Below, one piece after another: positions 2,796 through 41,650 of a stretch of 64,000 bases of DNA. Below the pieces are notes generated by a model, which was not told the origin of the DNA, did not search any database, and was given only the letters and a program-made list of their open reading frames with translations. Position 1 is the stretch's first letter; the number at the start of each line of letters is the position of its first letter. Origin of the DNA: Lysinibacillus pakistanensis (GTDB lineage: Bacteria > Bacillota > Bacilli > Bacillales_A > Planococcaceae); NCBI RefSeq assembly GCF_030123245.1, contig NZ_CP126101.1, positions 742,501 through 806,500 on the forward strand, in the 5' to 3' direction. Both the position numbers and the translations under genes were made by a program.

Positions 2796-3576
2796 CATAG
2801 TGTTGAAAAACTAAATGGTCAAGGGACTCTTTGTGAATATTTAGTCAAAATGAAGGTGATTTCCGTTCCAGGCTACTCGCTTTCCGGTGGGCGAGCGACG
2901 AGCCGCTTCCTGCGCTGGAGGAACGAAGGCTAAGTGCGTCACGTCCTGTGACAACGCCTTCGTGACCAACCTCGTGTTGGCCTCAGTTTCCCGTCTGTCT
3001 CGCTATCCCACGGGAGTCGAGTAGCCTTGCACTCCTATCAGCAATAGTGTAGAACTTTAAATATTTTCTTCCCTCAAAAGTAAAATAAAAACATGTTACT
3101 CACCATCATTAAATGGATAGAATAGTGGTACAATTCTATAGCTGTCAACCTACATTCTATGCATAAAACTACTTTTTCACTTTACATAAAAAGCCACTTA
3201 TTACTGTCGCTCTGCATTCACATAGAAAAATGTTATCAAAGCTCCATTTTTGCACAATATAGTGATGGCTAAGACTTCAAATTTATCACTATTAATTTGT
3301 GTGAAATGCCAGAAGAAAATACTATGAGCAGTGGTTGATTGGAGTGTAGACTGAGTGACTCCTCGGGGATTCAGCGTCACAGATGAGACCCTGGAGCGAG
3401 CAGCGCGAGTGAAGCGGCTCATCGGACGCCCCCAGGAAGCTCTGCTCTGCGCGAAAGCGAAGCGTCAGCGGCAAAGCACTCAGTCGGAACGGAGATCAAC
3501 CCCTCGTTTTGAAAAAGGACTATACTTTTAATTTGTCACCTTGATTTCATTGACATAATAGTATTTCAACAACATG
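2796..3576 (-). mobile_element. Palindrome-associated non-coding element, copy B (inverted)
   Basis: This 781-bp copy lies in the opposite orientation to A, C and D. It starts with CATAGTGTTGAAAAAC and ends with GTATTTCAACAACATG, the two imperfect inverted-repeat ends. It is bounded on both sides by the same 31-bp host palindrome. Both hairpin modules are present: arms GGCTACTCG/CGAGTAGCC near 2870-3025 and GACTGAGTG/CACTCAGTC near 3350-3485. The apex of the first module carries an additional nested hairpin (arms CGAAGGC at 2924 and GCCTTCG at 2956) that is absent from the other copies. It sits between the Yip1-like gene and the large repeat protein, which diverge. No transposase is encoded. 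Confidence 0.85.
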
Positions 3577-3607
3577 AAATTATGTGCAGGATCAATGCAC
3601 ATAATTC
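3577..3607. repeat. Right copy of the 31-bp palindromic direct repeat flanking element B
   Basis: It matches 2765-2795 base for base, then the flanking sequences diverge. With the left copy it brackets element B exactly, as a target duplication would. Confidence 0.9.
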
Positions 3608-11404: not shown

Positions 11405-13306
11405 TTGTACCTCAAAAAGATCAGTCTTATATTATGCGTCTTATTCATTTCAGCTTCTATGTTTACTATACATAGCGCACAAGCAAGTGGCGGTTTTGTA
11501 GATGTTCCGAAAGATCACGAAGCTTATGAAGAGATCAATTATTTAGTTAGTTTAGGAGTTATTAAAGGATATACGGAAAATGGCAAAACGTATTACAAAC
11601 CTTATAACTCAGTAACACGTGGACAAGTTGCCAAAATGGCTGTTGTTGCTTCAGGTAATAAGCCATTAGTTGTCAGTAAATCAAACTTTTCTGATGTAAC
11701 AGTTGGAACAGAGCTTTCTGGCTATGTAGAACGTGCTGTACAACTTGGTTTCTTTAGAACCAATACAAAGGGACAATTCTTACCAAACAAGCCTTTAACT
11801 CGTGATGAAATGAGTTATGTCCTAACGAAAGCGTTTAAGCTGGATACAAGTGAATATGAAAATATTGATTCTCCATTTGTGGATGTAGGGATTACACATG
11901 CCTACGTTCAATATGTGAATACAATTTACTATAATGGTATTACAAAGGGGAGCGGTCAAAATTATAACCCAAATAGTTCAGTGACACGTGCACAGTTTGC
12001 GTTATTTGTCGCACGCGCAAAAAGTGAAAAATATCGCTTAGAACCCCCTGTAAAAGGTGTAGCAGTTCCTGATACATCACAAGTTATCGGATTGATTGCT
12101 AGTACAACTGATGGTTTAAATATTCGTAAATCAAAGGATTCCTCATCTTCTACTAATATTGTAGGCACAGTGAATAAAGGAGGTAAACTATCCGTCTATG
12201 CAGTAGAGGGAGACTGGTTAAAGATTACCTATAAAGGCGCCTTTGCCTATGTTTATAAAACGTACGCACAATTTTTAGATGCTGATGGAAATGCACTAGG
12301 GAATGTCCAAAAACAGGTCACAACAACACAAGGTATCAATCTTTATGTTAAGCCATCATCTTCCTCAAAAATCATTTCCTCAGTGAAGAGTGATGTGAAA
12401 TTACCAGTTTATAAGACTACAGGTGGCTATTATTTAACTGTAGTAAACGGTTTACCAGGTTATATTGTTGCTAATAGCACAGTCGATGTTGAAGTTGAGC
12501 AGCCTACTACGCCAGATCCAGACCCAACTCCTCCAATAGTGACAGGCGATTTACTTGGTCGTGTGACAGTAGATAATTTAAACATCCGCAAAGAAGCGAA
12601 TTCTACTTCTACAGTGCTAGGCAAACTTACTAAAGGTGAGTATGTCCAAGTGAACAGCATTAATGGTTATTGGGCACAGGTTACGTATGAAGGTCAAAAA
12701 GGGTATGTCCATAAATCATACTTAAAGCTTTTAAATCAAAATGGCAATGCATTAAAAAATCGTATTATCATTCTTGATCCAGGTCATGGTGGTAAGGACC
12801 CAGGAACTGTAGTAGGTTCTAACTCTGAGAAAGCTATTACATTAAAAGTCAGCACACTTGTGAAGCAAAAGCTTGAAGCGGCAGGTGCAAAAGTATTGAT
12901 GACTCGTACAAGTGACACATATCCATCTCTACAAGACCGAGTAGATTTTACAAATGAAAACTATGGTGAAATCTTTGTAAGTATCCATGTAAACTCAGCA
13001 GCGAATACTTCTGCACAAGGCACTGAAACATATTATGCTATTACAACAGGTGATATGCATCAGGAAGATATTGATCTAGCATCATTTGTTAATAATCAAA
13101 TTGTTAATAACTTAAAAATGAAAAATCGTGGTGTTAAAGAAGAACAATACTACGTTATTCGCAATACGATTATACCAGCTATTCTCGTTGAACTAGGCTT
13201 CCTAACAAATAGTGAAGATCGCGGGAAAATGACAGATGATCAATATGTCGAGCTATTTGCTGACTCAATCTACAAAGGAATTTCCCAATATTACGCAAAA
13301 CAATAA
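11405..13306 (+). CDS. SLH/SH3-anchored N-acetylmuramoyl-L-alanine amidase (paralog 1)
   Basis: This 633-residue exported enzyme has a signal peptide ending near AQASG and three SLH domains (about 30-210, with VTRGQVAKM, LTRDEMSYVL and VTRAQFALF). Three bacterial SH3-like repeats follow (about 225-290, 300-365 and 385-445; the first and third carry DGLNIRKS/DNLNIRKE). A C-terminal Amidase_3 domain (about 455-630) has zinc-ligand motifs ILDPGHGGKDPG, a Glu in SEKAI, FVSIHVN and ILVELGFLTN. It should remove stem peptides from glycan strands. A proline/threonine linker precedes the third SH3. The start is TTG behind GGGAGG. Its terminator region was the target of element C. The gene is closely related to those at 14221 and 19723. 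Confidence 0.92.
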   Translation: MYLKKISLILCVLFISASMFTIHSAQASGGFVDVPKDHEAYEEINYLVSLGVIKGYTENGKTYYKPYNSVTRGQVAKMAVVASGNKPLVVSKSNFSDVTVGTELSGYVERAVQLGFFRTNTKGQFLPNKPLTRDEMSYVLTKAFKLDTSEYENIDSPFVDVGITHAYVQYVNTIYYNGITKGSGQNYNPNSSVTRAQFALFVARAKSEKYRLEPPVKGVAVPDTSQVIGLIASTTDGLNIRKSKDSSSSTNIVGTVNKGGKLSVYAVEGDWLKITYKGAFAYVYKTYAQFLDADGNALGNVQKQVTTTQGINLYVKPSSSSKIISSVKSDVKLPVYKTTGGYYLTVVNGLPGYIVANSTVDVEVEQPTTPDPDPTPPIVTGDLLGRVTVDNLNIRKEANSTSTVLGKLTKGEYVQVNSINGYWAQVTYEGQKGYVHKSYLKLLNQNGNALKNRIIILDPGHGGKDPGTVVGSNSEKAITLKVSTLVKQKLEAAGAKVLMTRTSDTYPSLQDRVDFTNENYGEIFVSIHVNSAANTSAQGTETYYAITTGDMHQEDIDLASFVNNQIVNNLKMKNRGVKEEQYYVIRNTIIPAILVELGFLTNSEDRGKMTDDQYVELFADSIYKGISQYYAKQ

Positions 13307-13312
13307 CAATAA

Positions 13313-13347
13313 AAACTACATTGTTCAAAAGTAGAACAATGTAGTTT
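13313..13347 (+). terminator. Terminator hairpin of amidase 1 = left direct repeat of element C
   Basis: This 35-bp palindrome (arms about ACTACATTGTTC and GAACAATGTAGT) follows the amidase stop codon. It is repeated perfectly at 14026-14060. The T-tract of this copy is cut to TTT by the element, which starts at 13348. Confidence 0.85.
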
Positions 13348-14025
13348 CATGTTGTTGAAATACTATTATGTCAATGAAATCAAGGTGACAAATTAAAAAG
13401 TTTAACCCTTTTTCAAGACGAGGGGTTGATTTCCGTTCTGACTGAGTGCTTTCCTGGGGGCGTCCGATGAGCCGCTTCACTCGCGTTCCAGGGTCTCATC
13501 TGTGACGCTGAATCCCCGAGAAATCACTCAGTCTACACTCCAATCAACCACTGCTCATAGTATTTTCGTTGGCATTTCACATAAATGTATAGTGATAAAT
13601 TTAAGTCTTAACCATCGCTATTTTTCGTAAAAAATGAAGCTGATAACATTTTTCTATGCGAAAGCAGTACGACAGCAGTAAGAGGCTTTATGTTTAGTTA
13701 TAAAGTATTTTTATGCACAAAATGTAGGTTGACAGCTATAGAATTGTACTACTATTCTATCCATTTAATGATGGTGAGTAATATGCTTTTACTTTACTAT
13801 TGAAGGAAGAAAATATTTAAAGTTCTACACTATTGCAGATTGGAGTGTAAGGCTACTCGACTCCCGTGGGATAGCGAGACAGACGAGACCCTGCACGGAG
13901 CGTCAGCGCAGGAAGCGGCTCGTCGCTCGCCCGCAGGAAAGCGAGTAGCCTGGAACGGAAATCACCTCCATTTTGACTAAATATTCACAAAGAGTCCCTT
14001 GACCATTTAGTTTTTCAACACTATG
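13348..14025 (+). mobile_element. Palindrome-associated non-coding element, copy C (cleanest)
   Basis: This 678-bp element starts CATGTTGTTGAAATAC and ends GTTTTTCAACACTATG. Reading both ends inward, 13 of 16 bases agree. Identical 35-bp host terminator palindromes flank it. It contains two inverted, homologous hairpin modules. The left one (13440-13533) has stem GACTGAGTG/CACTCAGTC and inner pair GATGAG/CTCATC. The right one (13851-13950) has stem GGCTACTCG/CGAGTAGCC and inner pair GACGAG/CTCGTC. About 300 AT-rich bases separate them. There is no plausible protein gene, so mobility would need a transposase encoded elsewhere. It lies between two amidase paralogs. Confidence 0.88.
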
Positions 14026-14060
14026 AAACTACATTGTTCAAAAGTAGAACAATGTAGTTT
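14026..14060 (+). terminator. Right direct repeat of element C (duplicated terminator hairpin)
   Basis: It is identical over 35 bases to 13313-13347 and is followed by TTTTTCTT, so this copy keeps the full terminator T-tract. Confidence 0.9.
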
Positions 14061-14220
14061 TTTCTTATATAATTAGAAATAAATTTTGTTAAAATTACGA
14101 AATTATGTAACAAAAGGTAGAGATATATCGTTCTAATAAAAGGAGGTTTAAAACTCTTTGTTTTTACTAAATCCATAGTTCGGAAAATGAACGAGGCAAA
14201 TAAAAAGGAGGGAATATGGA
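14061..14220 (+). promoter_or_regulatory. Leader region of amidase 2 with two ribosome-binding sites
   Basis: One strong site, AAAGGAGG, lies near 14138-14147. It could serve a six-codon frame starting TTG at 14158 and ending TAG at 14176-14178. The site used for the amidase, AAAAGGAGGG, is near 14203-14212. Whether the first site is a leader peptide or chance is unknown. Confidence 0.3.
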
Positions 14221-16149
14221 TTGTATTTTAAAAAAATTAGTCTTATGTTATGTATTTTATTAATATCAACCTTTTTTACCATACATAGTGTAAGTGCTAG
14301 CAGCAATTTTGAGGATATTTCTTCAAAGCATGAGGCTTATGAAGAAATTAATTATTTAATTAAATTAGGTGTTATCAAAGGGTATACAGAGAAAGGAAAA
14401 ACCTATTATAAACCTAATAATAAGGTAACTCGTGGACAAGTTGCCAAAATGGTTGTAATTGCATCAGGCAATAAACCACTAACTGTAAAAAAATCGAGCT
14501 TTTCTGATGTAACTGTTGGTACGGAGCTTTCGGGTTATGTGGAACGTGCTATACAGCTAGGTTACTTCGCAACAAATACGAAGGATCGATTCTCACCAAA
14601 TAAACCCCTAACTCGTGATGAAATGAGTTATGTATTATCAAAGGCATTTAAGCTTGATACAAGTCAATATGAAAAAATTGATTCTCCTTTTGTTGATGTA
14701 AAAACAACTCACCCTTACAATCAATATATTAATACTATTTATTATAATGGTATTACGAAGGGAAGCGGTCAAAAATATAATCCGAATGACCAGGTATCGC
14801 GTGCACAGTTTGCGTTATTTGTAGCGCGTGCCAAAAATGATAAGTATCGTTTAGATTTGCCGATAAAAGAAGTAGTTGTTCCTGATAATTCAGCAATTAT
14901 AGGGACTATCCAAGTTACAACTGATGGCTTAAATATTCGTAAGTCAAAAGATTCTTCAACTATAGATAATATTGTTGGGAAAGTGAATAAAGGTAGTAAA
15001 TTAGCAGTCTATGCAATAGAAGGGGACTGGTTAAAAGTTTCATCTAATGGTGGCTATGCTTATGTTTATAAAACATATGCTCAGTTTTTAGATATGGATG
15101 GCAAAACATTAGGAAATGCTAAAAAACAGGTTACTACGACACAAAATATAAATCTTTACCTAGAACCAACATCTACTTCAAACGTTATTTCAACTATTAA
15201 TAGTAAAGTGAAATTACCTGTTTATAACACTGTAAGCGGCTACTACTTAACTGTAGTAAACGGTTTACCAGGCTATATCGTAGCAGATAGTACAGAGGAT
15301 GTTGTAGTAGAAAAGCCTTCTATACCAGATCCAAAGCCAACACCCGATCCTACACCAACACCCGATCCGACCCCACCATCAGTTTCAGGTGATATATTAG
15401 GTCGAGTAACGGTGGATAATTTAAATATCCGAAAAGAGGCAAACTCTACTTCTACAATCGTAGATAAGGTGAAAAAGGGTGAATATGTTCAAGTAAATAG
15501 TGTAAATGGTTATTGGGCACAGGTAACCTATAAAGGTCAAAATGGGTATGTCCATAAATCCTATATAAAGCTATTAAATCAAAATGGTAATCCATTAAAA
15601 GATCGAATTATCATAATTGATCCAGGTCATGGTGGCAATGACCCTGGAACTGTAGTTGGTACTATTGCAGAAAAAAATGTTGTATTAAAGGTCAGCACTC
15701 TTGTTACGCAAAAGCTTGAGGCAGCAGGTGCGAATGTTCTAATGACTCGTACAGGGGATACATATCCTACAAGAGAAGGTCGAGTTGACTTTACGCATAC
15801 TAATTATGGTGAGATCTTCGTAAGTATCCATGCTAATTACGCAGATAATACTGCTGCACAAGGTACTGAAACCTACTACGCTAAGACTCCAGGTGATGTG
15901 TATGAGGAAGACATTGATCTTGCGACATTTGTAAACAATCAAATTGTTAAAAATGTAAATATGAAAGATCGTAGGGTCAGAGAAATGAAATATATTGTAA
16001 TTGCTAAAACGAATATTCCAGCTATTCTTGTCGAGTTAGGCTTCCTATCAAATAGTGAAGATCGCGCTAAATTGACAGATGATCAATATGTTGAGCTATT
16101 TGCTGAATCTATCTACAAGGGTATTGTGGAATATTACTCAAAACAATAA
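14221..16149 (+). CDS. SLH/SH3-anchored N-acetylmuramoyl-L-alanine amidase (paralog 2)
   Basis: This 642-residue protein has the same layout as the gene at 11405: signal peptide, three SLH domains (about 28-208), three SH3-like repeats, and Amidase_3 with IIDPGHGGNDPG, FVSIHAN and ILVELGFLSN. The linker before the third SH3 is extended by a repeated Pro-Asp-Pro-Thr tract (PDPKPTPDPTPTPDPTPP). The zinc-binding motifs are intact. The late ENYT/EEQYYVIRN region of paralog 1 is replaced by EMKYIVIAK, so the catalytic cleft rim may differ. It starts with TTG behind GGAGGG. Element C lies immediately upstream. Duplication and later divergence are inferred from the shared order. Confidence 0.92.
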   Translation: MYFKKISLMLCILLISTFFTIHSVSASSNFEDISSKHEAYEEINYLIKLGVIKGYTEKGKTYYKPNNKVTRGQVAKMVVIASGNKPLTVKKSSFSDVTVGTELSGYVERAIQLGYFATNTKDRFSPNKPLTRDEMSYVLSKAFKLDTSQYEKIDSPFVDVKTTHPYNQYINTIYYNGITKGSGQKYNPNDQVSRAQFALFVARAKNDKYRLDLPIKEVVVPDNSAIIGTIQVTTDGLNIRKSKDSSTIDNIVGKVNKGSKLAVYAIEGDWLKVSSNGGYAYVYKTYAQFLDMDGKTLGNAKKQVTTTQNINLYLEPTSTSNVISTINSKVKLPVYNTVSGYYLTVVNGLPGYIVADSTEDVVVEKPSIPDPKPTPDPTPTPDPTPPSVSGDILGRVTVDNLNIRKEANSTSTIVDKVKKGEYVQVNSVNGYWAQVTYKGQNGYVHKSYIKLLNQNGNPLKDRIIIIDPGHGGNDPGTVVGTIAEKNVVLKVSTLVTQKLEAAGANVLMTRTGDTYPTREGRVDFTHTNYGEIFVSIHANYADNTAAQGTETYYAKTPGDVYEEDIDLATFVNNQIVKNVNMKDRRVREMKYIVIAKTNIPAILVELGFLSNSEDRAKLTDDQYVELFAESIYKGIVEYYSKQ

Positions 16150-39183: not shown

Positions 39184-39189
39184 AAAAAT

Positions 39190-39222
39190 CCTCTTATTCT
39201 TTGCTGAAAGAATAAGAGGTTT
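39190..39222. terminator. Terminator hairpin of the LysM gene = left direct repeat of element D
   Basis: CCTCTTATTCTTT and its complement AAAGAATAAGAGG form a 13-bp stem. The 33 bases recur at 41618-41650. The element begins at 39223. Confidence 0.88.
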
Positions 39223-39474
39223 CATGTTGTTGAAATACTATTATGTCAATGAAATCAAGGTGACAAATTAAAAAATATGCCCTTTTTCAAAACGAGGGGT
39301 TGATCTCCGTTCCGACTGAGTGCTTTGTAGCTGTCGCTTTGCTTTCGCTACAGAAAACATTTGCCGCTGACGCTTCGCTTTCGCGCAGAGCAGAGCTTCC
39401 TGGGGGCGTCCGATGAGCCGCTTCACTCGCATGCTCGCTCCAGGGTCTCCTCTGTGACGCTGAATCCCCAAGGA

Positions 39475-39485
39475 GTCACTCAGTC
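39475..39485 (+). repeat. Left 11-bp target duplication of the IS
   Basis: GTCACTCAGTC lies directly before the IS left end and is repeated at 41113-41123. It coincides with the 3' stem arm of element D's left hairpin module. Confidence 0.92.
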
Positions 39486-41112
39486 CATATGCGTCAAGTT
39501 AAGCAAGATTACTTTTCTACTCTCCATCTATCAACCGCCATTAGTGGTACCTCTTTTCTTAAAAGGGTTTCATTTTTGAGAAACAGGGAAAATAAAAAGT
39601 ATCCTGAACGAAAGAGCATCACGAAATACACATTTCCCCTTTCGGAAAAATGCGTATTTGTTGAAATCTCATCTTTCCAACCGCTTAGGGTTTGTGGGTG
39701 GTGCGCTTTCGTCCAATCGCAAACAGGATGCGTTCAATTTCTTGTAGGGTACTTTGCCAGCTCGGTTGATCACGAGCGCGCCAAAGTATCCCTATTTTTG
39801 GTTGGATTGCTCGCATGGTTAGTCGTTCACTCAGAATAATTTGTTTCTCCTGCCAAAAGTAAAAACGAAATTGATAGGAAAATAAAGTACTAATTAAGAG
39901 AATAATTAGTTCTGCATAGAGGTGGCATTCCCATCTTGCCTGTTTCATTTTTCGAAAGTAGGACGCCTTGAAATCACTTTTCCATGTTTTGAATAATAAT
40001 TCAATTTGCCAACGATACCGATACAGTTGTACAACTTCTTTAGCCGTAATTTCTTGAGGTAGATTCGTAATTAAGGTAGAAATGCCTGATAATGCTTTGG
40101 ATTTTTGCTTAATTTGACCAGGCTTAGTTTGAGCACGTCGTTTAATTCGATATTCTTGTCGTTGTTGTTCTTTTTTAGTGAAGCGATAGAGAATCAAGCG
40201 CGTTGGTAATTTTTCCTCTTTCCCCAAATATACACGTGGAAATTCGCGCATTTCCCCACGTTTCAATGTTGGCCACTCATTTTCTAAATCTAGCCGTTCA
40301 TAAGCATACATCTTTCGAATACGTCCATCGGGATGTCGAGGAGGATGGGGATGATCTTCAAAATAAGTAGTATCCACACGTGCACGCGAAATATAAAATG
40401 CTTCTTTTTCATCGATTTTTTGAAACAGTTTATATTGAAAGTAACCAAGATCTTGTAACAGTAAATCGCCTTTCTCAACTGTCTCTAAACGCTTCATACC
40501 AGAGGGGCAATCGCCTGCCTTACCAGCTTGTAGTTCGATATATGTGAAACTTCCTGTGAGGTAATCAAACTCCATTTGAAATTTTATGCCTGCTCCAACT
40601 GTACTAGGATAGGTAGAGATACAAGTAGCTGGTAATTTAATCGACGTGCCATCAAGAATGCGTATCCGTGTCAAAGGATAGTGGGTCTTAATTGGCATCT
40701 TGGCCAATGACAGCGTCGATTGTTGAGCAAACAAGCATTGAAAAATGGTTCGAAGAAAGTACACAGTCTTTTCATTGAATCGTTGATTTAGCCCTTCTTT
40801 CGTCATGTAGACCTGTTGCTTAGTCAAATGCGTGCAAAGGGTCGTGAGAGAAGGTTGTGATAAGCCTTTTGTTTGTTCAAAGAGAAGCTTCATGAAGGCA
40901 GAAAGAGTTAATTTTCTTGTTCTTTGTATAAAGTTAGTTGTTTTAGCAATCTGATGAAGTTCTTTTGGGCGACAATACCGAGAACAGCTGCTTTAAAGAA
41001 TAGGGTGCATGTGTCGGTTTCATCCTACATTCCTCCTCATGTTAGTGGTTGTACTTTTCTTTACCACCAAACGAAGTCATGTAATCTTATTATCCTTAAC
41101 TTGACGCATATG
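39486..41112 (-). mobile_element. IS4-family insertion sequence inside element D
   Basis: This 1627-bp IS has perfect 18-bp terminal inverted repeats, CATATGCGTCAAGTTAAG, at both ends. It is flanked by 11-bp direct repeats, in line with the 10-13 bp usual for IS4 relatives. Its only gene is a minus-strand DDE transposase with a frameshift near its start. About 200 non-coding bases lie at the left end. It inserted after element D was already in place. Confidence 0.93.
39685..41023 (-). pseudogene. Frameshifted IS4-family transposase
   Basis: The clear frame from an internal ATG (40893) gives 402 residues with the DDE core. Asp is in ILDGTSIKLP, a second Asp in LLQDLGYF, and the YREK signature in YRYRWQIELLFKTWK has the right spacing. 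However, residues typical of the N-terminus (KELHQIAKTTNFIQ) are encoded in frame upstream of that ATG. The only good ribosome-binding site (AGGAGG) stands 8 bases before an ATG at 41023 in another frame. One base too many in the T4 run at 40963-40966 separates them. With TTT the gene would read through as about 445 residues, normal for IS4. It is probably inactive, unless ribosomes shift there. Confidence 0.85.
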
Positions 41113-41123
41113 GTCACTCAGTC
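41113..41123 (+). repeat. Right 11-bp target duplication of the IS
   Basis: GTCACTCAGTC, identical to 39475-39485. Confidence 0.92.
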
Positions 41124-41617
41124 TACACTCCAATCAACCATTGCTCATAGTATTTTCATTGGCATTTCACATAAATGTATAATGATAAATTGAAGTCTTA
41201 GCCATCACTATTTTATGCAAAAATGAAGCTGATAACATTTTTCTATGCGAAAGCAATATGTCAGCAATAAGTGGCTTTATGTTTATTTATAAAGTAGTTT
41301 TATGCACAAAATGTAGGTTGACAGCTATAGAATTGTACTACTACTCTATCCATTTAATGTTGGTGAGTAATATGCTTTTACTTTACTTTTGAAGGAAGAA
41401 AATATTTAAAGTTCTACACTATTGCAGATTGGAGTGCAAGGCTACTCGACTCCCGTGGGATAGCGGGACAGACGAGACCCTGCACGGAGCGTCAGCGCAG
41501 GAAGCGGCTCGTCGCTCGCCCACAGGAAAGCGAGTAGCCTGGAACGGAAATCACCTCCATTTTGACTAAATATTCACAAAGAGTCCCTTGACCATTTAGT
41601 TTTTCAACACTATGAAA

Positions 41618-41650
41618 CCTCTTATTCTTTGCTGAAAGAATAAGAGGTTT
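41618..41650. terminator. Right direct repeat of element D, terminator of slaP
   Basis: It is identical over 33 bases to 39190-39222 and is followed by TTTTTTG on the plus strand. On the minus strand it lies 8 bases after the slaP stop codon, so this copy now serves slaP. Confidence 0.88.

Follow-up and report, generated by a model that had tools for sequence, protein, structure and literature searches.

The stretch of DNA analysed here, called the window, comprises 64,000 nucleotides of the genome of Lysinibacillus pakistanensis. Within it lies a gene-less element, copy C, bracketed by two identical 35-bp palindromes just beyond the end of a host gene, and the same window holds copies A, B and D. 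The features are as follows, where G021 is a congeneric genome and IS denotes the resident insertion sequence of 1552 bp described below.

9-614, + strand: copy A, a diverged element with unlike sequences on its two sides and no matching repeat
2765-2795 and 3577-3607, - strand: 31-bp repeats AAATTATGTGCAGGATCAATGCACATAATTC of copy B, with the element at 2796-3576; site empty in G021
11405-13306, + strand: host gene upstream of copy C, Amidase_3 with SLH and SH3 domains (domain search)
13313-13347, + strand: upstream 35-bp host palindrome, first copy of the target duplication, with a 14-bp stem and 7-base loop; terminator-like in the scan
13348-14025, + strand: copy C, MITE-type element of 678 bp containing no ORF of at least 60 aa
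13348-13363, + strand: left end of copy C, CATGTTGTTGAAATAC; with subterminal bases, 28/40 identical to the IS left end
14010-14025, - strand: right end of copy C, CATAGTGTTGAAAAAC; with subterminal bases, 32/45 identical to the IS right end
14026-14060, + strand: downstream copy of the same 35-bp palindrome, followed by a T-tract; terminator-like in the scan
39187-39222 and 41615-41650, + strand: 36-bp hairpin repeats of copy D, with the element at 39223-41614; site empty in G021

The stop codon of the Amidase_3/SLH gene is followed by six bases and then by the target hairpin, which with its flanks has a predicted folding energy of -21.8 kcal/mol (z = -6.3). A sequence-only reading of the window had described copy C as 678 bp with 16-bp ends between two 35-bp palindromes, these forming the terminator of an upstream amidase, with no transposase encoded in the element. 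The coordinates are exact, and the domain search and terminator scan agree with that description. For copy B the 31-bp repeat of that reading holds; the 33 bp given for copy D is the exact part of a 36-bp repeat that contains one mismatch. Copy D is interrupted by an insertion carrying a transposase-like open frame of 435 codons.

A scan of positions 12900-14500 against Rfam at E values up to 1 gave two matches, both far below the gathering scores. Inside copy C the G+C-rich segments 13427-13548 and 13838-13964 are mutually inverted relatives of about 70% identity. At least 20 matches to the MITE are found in 19 of 32 congeneric genomes, among the matches listed, many of them to these G+C-rich segments. 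The genes on the two sides of copy C, 11405-13306 and 14221-16149, have the same make-up of SLH, SH3 and Amidase_3 domains.

Repeats and palindromes across the genome

A DNA search of the whole genome with the MITE gave 93 aligned pieces, and both 16-base ends recur with zero to two mismatches. Pairing the ends defines 46 elements, 43 of MITE type (332-2566 bp) and three copies of the IS; this census leaves out lone ends lacking a partner (for example at 1894947 and 4808945) and other matches with one or two mismatches. Anchored direct repeats of 18-49 bp and at least 85% identity, palindromic though in some cases imperfectly so, flank 37 of the 46, and the arrangement seen at copy C is thus repeated at other copies, as had been proposed. 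The sequence of the hairpin differs in nearly every copy, and very few copies lack a flanking hairpin altogether. Nine elements have no scored repeat. Three of these (200268, 1418245 and 1832549) have an identical stem on each side with altered loops, and the other six (4548394, copy A, 198400, the MITE at 4706211 and two IS copies) appear rearranged or unclear.

The repeat and the palindrome coincide. When the strongest palindrome was sought in the joined sites without using the repeat borders, its center lay within 0.5 bp of the center of the repeat in 34 of 37 elements, compared with four of 400 random 150-bp segments of the window; in the remaining three the strongest local palindrome lay further off. 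Anchored palindromes scoring 7 or more flank 44 of the 46 elements on one side or both, and 31 of them on both sides, a score reached at 0.9% of 20,000 random positions in the window. The two exceptions, copy B and the element at 4416925, have repeats of 31 and 32 bp that are imperfect palindromes. In this search the end of the stem corresponds exactly to the border of the repeat on both sides in 16 of 37 elements. By a simpler count, pairing stops at the cut in 22 of 37 and extends 1-6 bp beyond it in 15, so the cut is not always made at the end of the stem.

The length of the repeat is not constant as in the duplications of classical insertion sequences, ranging from 18 to 49 bp for MITE copies and from 14 to 37 bp for the IS. 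The targets share palindromic form and not sequence, save that the repeat begins with A in 67 of 74 half-sites. Where the first base differs, it is the same in both copies of the repeat, and the A is therefore a preference in the target and not part of the element. The landing site thus seems to be recognised by its shape rather than by its sequence, as the sequence-only reading had supposed.

The arms might alternatively be read as ordinary duplex, by a dimer with flexible spacing and a preference for A/T-rich edges, without any extrusion of the palindrome. Such reading would fit the preponderance of A at the first position, the fact that A is also the commonest base just outside the cut, and the shortness of several stems, which are only 7-8 bp long. 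Yet over lengths of 18-49 bp, and with arms that are unrelated beyond the edge, the duplication is still centered on the palindrome, and we regard recognition of this kind as possible but rather doubtful.

Most of the targets lie at the ends of genes. In a mechanical count of ORFs of at least 80 aa within 500 bp, 39 of the 43 MITE-type copies have one or more neighboring ORFs reading toward them, and the copies therefore sit in safe places. That distribution would be in keeping with ordinary long target duplications among which palindromes have been enriched by selection, insertions outside terminators having been purged. We consider this improbable. Selection at gene ends cannot set the length and center of a repeat to those of a palindrome, palindromes between divergent ORFs are targeted too (four of the 43 copies), and at three of 12 sites discussed below the same hairpin was apparently used independently in two genomes.

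It had also been suggested that duplication of the hairpin leaves a working terminator on both flanks, and this is now weakened. The border of the repeat is usually at or inside the T-tract, and therefore the gene-side hairpin is followed by the CATG.. or CATAG.. end of the element. The ten bases after the hairpin contain on average 4.9 T on the gene side and 6.4 after the far copy; in 45 gene-side cases the far side is richer in T in 37, equal in four and poorer in four. It is thus unlikely from the base composition that the two hairpins are equally strong terminators, the T-tract being kept by the far copy, although the gene-side hairpin at copy C is still terminator-like in the scan. A transcript reading through the element should stop at the far hairpin.

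Several copies have individual histories. Those at C1:4157289-4157969 (L006), copy D and L166 have differences between their two hairpins that retain or restore pairing of the arms, as if the arms correct each other or the terminators are under selection. In the 332-bp copy at C1:198400-198731 (L061) the right end runs into CTCTTTT, as though one hairpin had been removed by a deletion at a short sequence match shared by the end of the element and the hairpin. Copy A and the G021 copy L176 have a similar pair of unlike palindromes on their two sides, probably reflecting an old rearrangement at the same site; in a tree L176 clusters with the copy at 959870 and not with copy A.

The resident IS1182-family insertion sequence

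Matches to PF13751 led to three copies of an insertion sequence in the same genome, each 1552 bp long with 0-4 differences, and with ends CATAGTGTTGAAATAA and CATTCTGTTGAAAAAC. The only ORF longer than 100 aa inside it encodes a transposase of 464 aa, which scores 288.1 bits against the NCBIfam IS1182 model NF033551 (cut-off 270), and PF05598 (DUF772) and PF13751 (DDE_Tnp_1_6) are both matched above their cut-offs. Members of the IS1182 family have a single ORF, a length of about 1.3-1.95 kb and terminal inverted repeats, and the 1552-bp IS has all three. The sequence-only reading had pointed to this family, correctly as it turns out.

The ends of IS and MITE are alike when aligned straight, with 28 of 40 identities on the left and 32 of 45 on the right, neither value being reached in 20,000 shuffles; the crossed pairings give 24 and 22 over 40 bases. 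The IS and the MITEs also occur together. Among 32 congeneric genomes the full-length IS is present in two at 99-100% identity, that of the window (G000, three copies) and G021 (five copies), with some match in five genomes including a 68% relative in G010. Among the matches listed, near-full-length MITEs of at least 84% identity are confined to the same two genomes, and those in G022 and G001 are 70% identical. The IS itself has palindromic repeats at one of three copies here (31 bp) and at four of five in G021 (14-37 bp). Copy C encodes no transposase, is one of 43 copies and shares its ends with an autonomous IS, as expected of a MITE. The likely source of transposase is the 1552-bp IS of the same genome, which would mobilise copy C in trans, as the co-occurrence and the composite and stacked loci described below indirectly suggest.

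Several MITE copies contain other mobile DNA, named here by eye: IS4-like in copy D, L034 and L065, IS3-like in L064, L067 and L070, and a group II intron-type reverse transcriptase in L035. Each of these is present in some copies only, and we have rejected them as the motor. The transposase of an IS4-like or IS3-like element could in principle move the MITE from such a position. This is very improbable, for these elements interrupt only some of the copies, whereas the ends of the MITE, which were compared with those of the IS1182-family IS, match it left to left and right to right, and that IS co-occurs with closely similar MITEs, on the MITE side among the matches listed.

IS and MITE are also found side by side. 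At one site per genome, here and in G021, the order is hairpin-MITE-hairpin-IS-hairpin, with three occurrences of one hairpin (31 bp in this genome and 37 bp in G021, where one occurrence has one base changed), which is what would be expected if every insertion duplicates the hairpin. A different order, hairpin1-IS-hairpin2-MITE-hairpin1, occurs at 4704626-4706936. The outer copies of hairpin1 are identical, the outer ends are the left end of the IS and the left end of the MITE, and the repeats flanking the MITE at 369813 have the same sequence as hairpin2. It is as if the composite had transposed as a single unit, with an end of the IS on one side and an end of the MITE on the other. Its donor is uncertain because its MITE has its nearest relative in the copy at 147876 (99.7%) and is less close to that at 369813 (98.3%), with which it shares the hairpin; we therefore rejected the idea that the 4.7-Mb composite simply derives from the 369-kb copy.

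Empty and occupied sites in a second genome

The flanks of 12 copies were joined and searched for in six congeneric genomes. Eight of the 12 sites are uninterrupted in G021, with a single hairpin and no element. At the site of copy C, the two genomes do not differ over the 59 bases across the junction, single hairpin included, and they agree at 306 of 315 aligned positions. The seven further empty sites (copies D and B, 3739062, 5142678, 981873, 1083815 and 1344638) each have a single hairpin with some base changes and indels, the loop at 981873 being 14 bases longer. In the other five genomes six stretches, at three of the eight sites empty in G021, are uninterrupted with a more diverged hairpin, and at the remaining sites matches are split or partial.

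The flanking repeat is therefore host DNA, as the sequence-only reading had claimed; one hairpin is seen at each empty site, and two hairpins without an element at none. That the hairpins are part of the element and travel with it has almost nothing left to recommend it: flanking hairpins are almost universal among the copies and one composite unit contains a second hairpin, but the hairpin is a different one in nearly every copy and the eight empty sites rule the idea out.

Site 1215102 gave only a partial match in G021, and the other three (147876, 1411078 and 1143307) are occupied there too. At these the G021 element is in the opposite orientation and belongs to another clade, ranking 9, 27 and 35 of 49 in relatedness. 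Opposite orientation, together with the failure to be nearest relatives, suggests that the same hairpin was targeted independently in the two genomes at three of the 12 sites. A shared orthologous insertion is unlikely on the same grounds, though gene conversion could blur the relationships. Of at least 44 MITE matches in G021 we examined 17 stretches; ends could be paired in 16, of which 13 are flanked by palindromic repeats 18-37 bp long.

Relatives, mechanism and known systems

Related elements of the IS1182 family in the same phylum also duplicate palindromes, though not at every locus tested. Across the bacterial family, 105 of 200 genomes searched contain relatives, and 20 of the 30 loci listed have exact repeats of at least 20 bp that are 75% or more palindromic; among the other ten are an IS copy of the window's own genome (L101), loci that are truncated and some complete loci lacking such repeats. 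In a phylum sample of 299 genomes there was a match in 20, that of the window included. Excluding the latter, 12 of 27 loci, in seven genomes, have palindromic repeats of 11-29 bp with pairing of 70% or more, and most of the remainder are without convincing ends. Some of these lengths are underestimates, since a palindromic flank can itself be taken for an inverted end. Palindromic repeats of 18 bp are present in Neobacillus sp. OS1-33 and Priestia flexa, and Bacillus sp. AFS006103 has a 36-bp repeat holding a long palindrome offset by two bases; in the tally of named genomes three of five tested loci were palindromic, from ten fetched.

In a class-wide PF13751 sample palindromic repeats were found at three of 29 new loci; in most of the sample the ends were out of reach, given the short loci and the C-terminal position of the domain. 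None of four tested PF13751 loci, from five others in the genome of the window, has palindromic repeats; one of them (L051) has good inverted ends and an 8-bp repeat without a palindrome. These four and the sparse class sample do not show the trait to be general among IS1182-like elements. Among older MITE relatives in other genomes (L073-L085), two of 13 (L077 and L080) have whole-palindrome repeats. No match was obtained when a genome collection was scanned for the 30-base MITE end as a pattern or when plasmids were searched with the IS and the MITE, in collections where records near the genome of the window may be missing.

In textbook DDE transposition the target duplication has a fixed length, set by the spacing of the two active sites, and it arises when the 3' ends of the element are joined at staggered points with 5' overhangs. 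Since the stagger here equals the palindrome at any length, attack at the 5' foot of each hairpin is the simplest explanation. We propose, with considerable confidence, that copy C is a non-autonomous IS1182-family MITE that is moved by the resident IS, with the shape of a palindrome selecting the target and the whole hairpin becoming duplicated. The 464-aa DDE transposase would act in trans on the similar ends of the MITE, and would select DNA by its palindromic shape, for the most part hairpins resembling intrinsic terminators at the ends of genes. The two 3' ends of the element would then be joined to the palindrome at its outer 5' foot, on both strands, with the palindrome probably extruded as a cruciform. 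Filling of the gaps would leave one complete hairpin on each side, and as the stagger would be as wide as the palindrome the duplication would have its length.

The closest parallel is provided by IS1272 and TnSha1, IS1182-family elements of Staphylococcus, whose target hairpins are of unrelated sequence and include several confirmed transcription terminators (PMC5678879, PMC4923244). Repeated insertions into one hairpin are described, with both orientations at target Z of TnSha1, and the hairpin is partly deleted or replaced with target duplication absent (PMC5678879, PMC4923244). The Lysinibacillus element thus resembles them in transposase family, in sequence-unrelated hairpin targets and in repeated use of one hairpin. 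Unlike IS1272, which replaces it, the hairpin is present twice around the element and once in the empty site. Joining at the 5' foot (pathway b, Fig 13 b) appears in PMC5678879 as a hypothetical branch that would duplicate the hairpin. Some members of the family have been stated to target palindromic sequences (Siguier et al. 2015, as cited in PMC5678879 and PMC4923244), a statement made without detailed data according to PMC5678879.

Other relatives are less similar. For ISPse1 of Paracoccus the repeat is given as 4 bp (PMC3281130), which differs from the palindrome-long repeats found here. In Methanosarcina acetivorans, two MITEs, one of 160 bp tabulated with a 4-bp direct repeat and one of 169 bp with a repeat of 0 bp, have the IS1182-family partner ISMac2 (PMC3852290). 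They too are gene-less elements assigned to an IS1182-family partner, but in the portion of that source available no palindrome duplication is mentioned. Outside these examples, IS1397 and ISPpu10, with REP/BIME targets, also enter palindromic units, but those of a specific repeat family and not any palindrome. To our knowledge duplication of a whole palindrome is not their known outcome. ISfinder lists a wide range of repeat lengths for the IS1182 family, and specialists may therefore already have seen long palindromic repeats. In the open-licence literature, as far as its available text extends, we found no description of duplication of a whole hairpin by an IS1182 element. Palindrome targeting by the family is known; a hairpin that is duplicated rather than replaced is present in PMC5678879 only as the hypothetical branch.

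We lean, somewhat cautiously, toward a more general view in which a clade of IS1182 DDE transposases across the phylum has no fixed stagger, strand transfer at both 5' feet of an extruded cruciform allowing the palindrome to set the length of the duplication. The family would then be divided between duplicators acting at the 5' foot and replacers acting at the 3' foot, such as IS1272, and the gene-less derivatives would fill terminators while leaving the far terminator intact.

A duplication whose length tracks the shape of its target, over a range of 14-49 bp, offers a direct way to test whether a transposase recognises shape, and the dozens of sites, the empty sites and the matched IS constitute a natural dataset. 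For genomics, it accounts for duplicated hairpins around repeats, and a flanking palindrome may be mistaken for the ends of an element. One transposase family is linked to two opposite outcomes, in which the hairpin is either duplicated or deleted.
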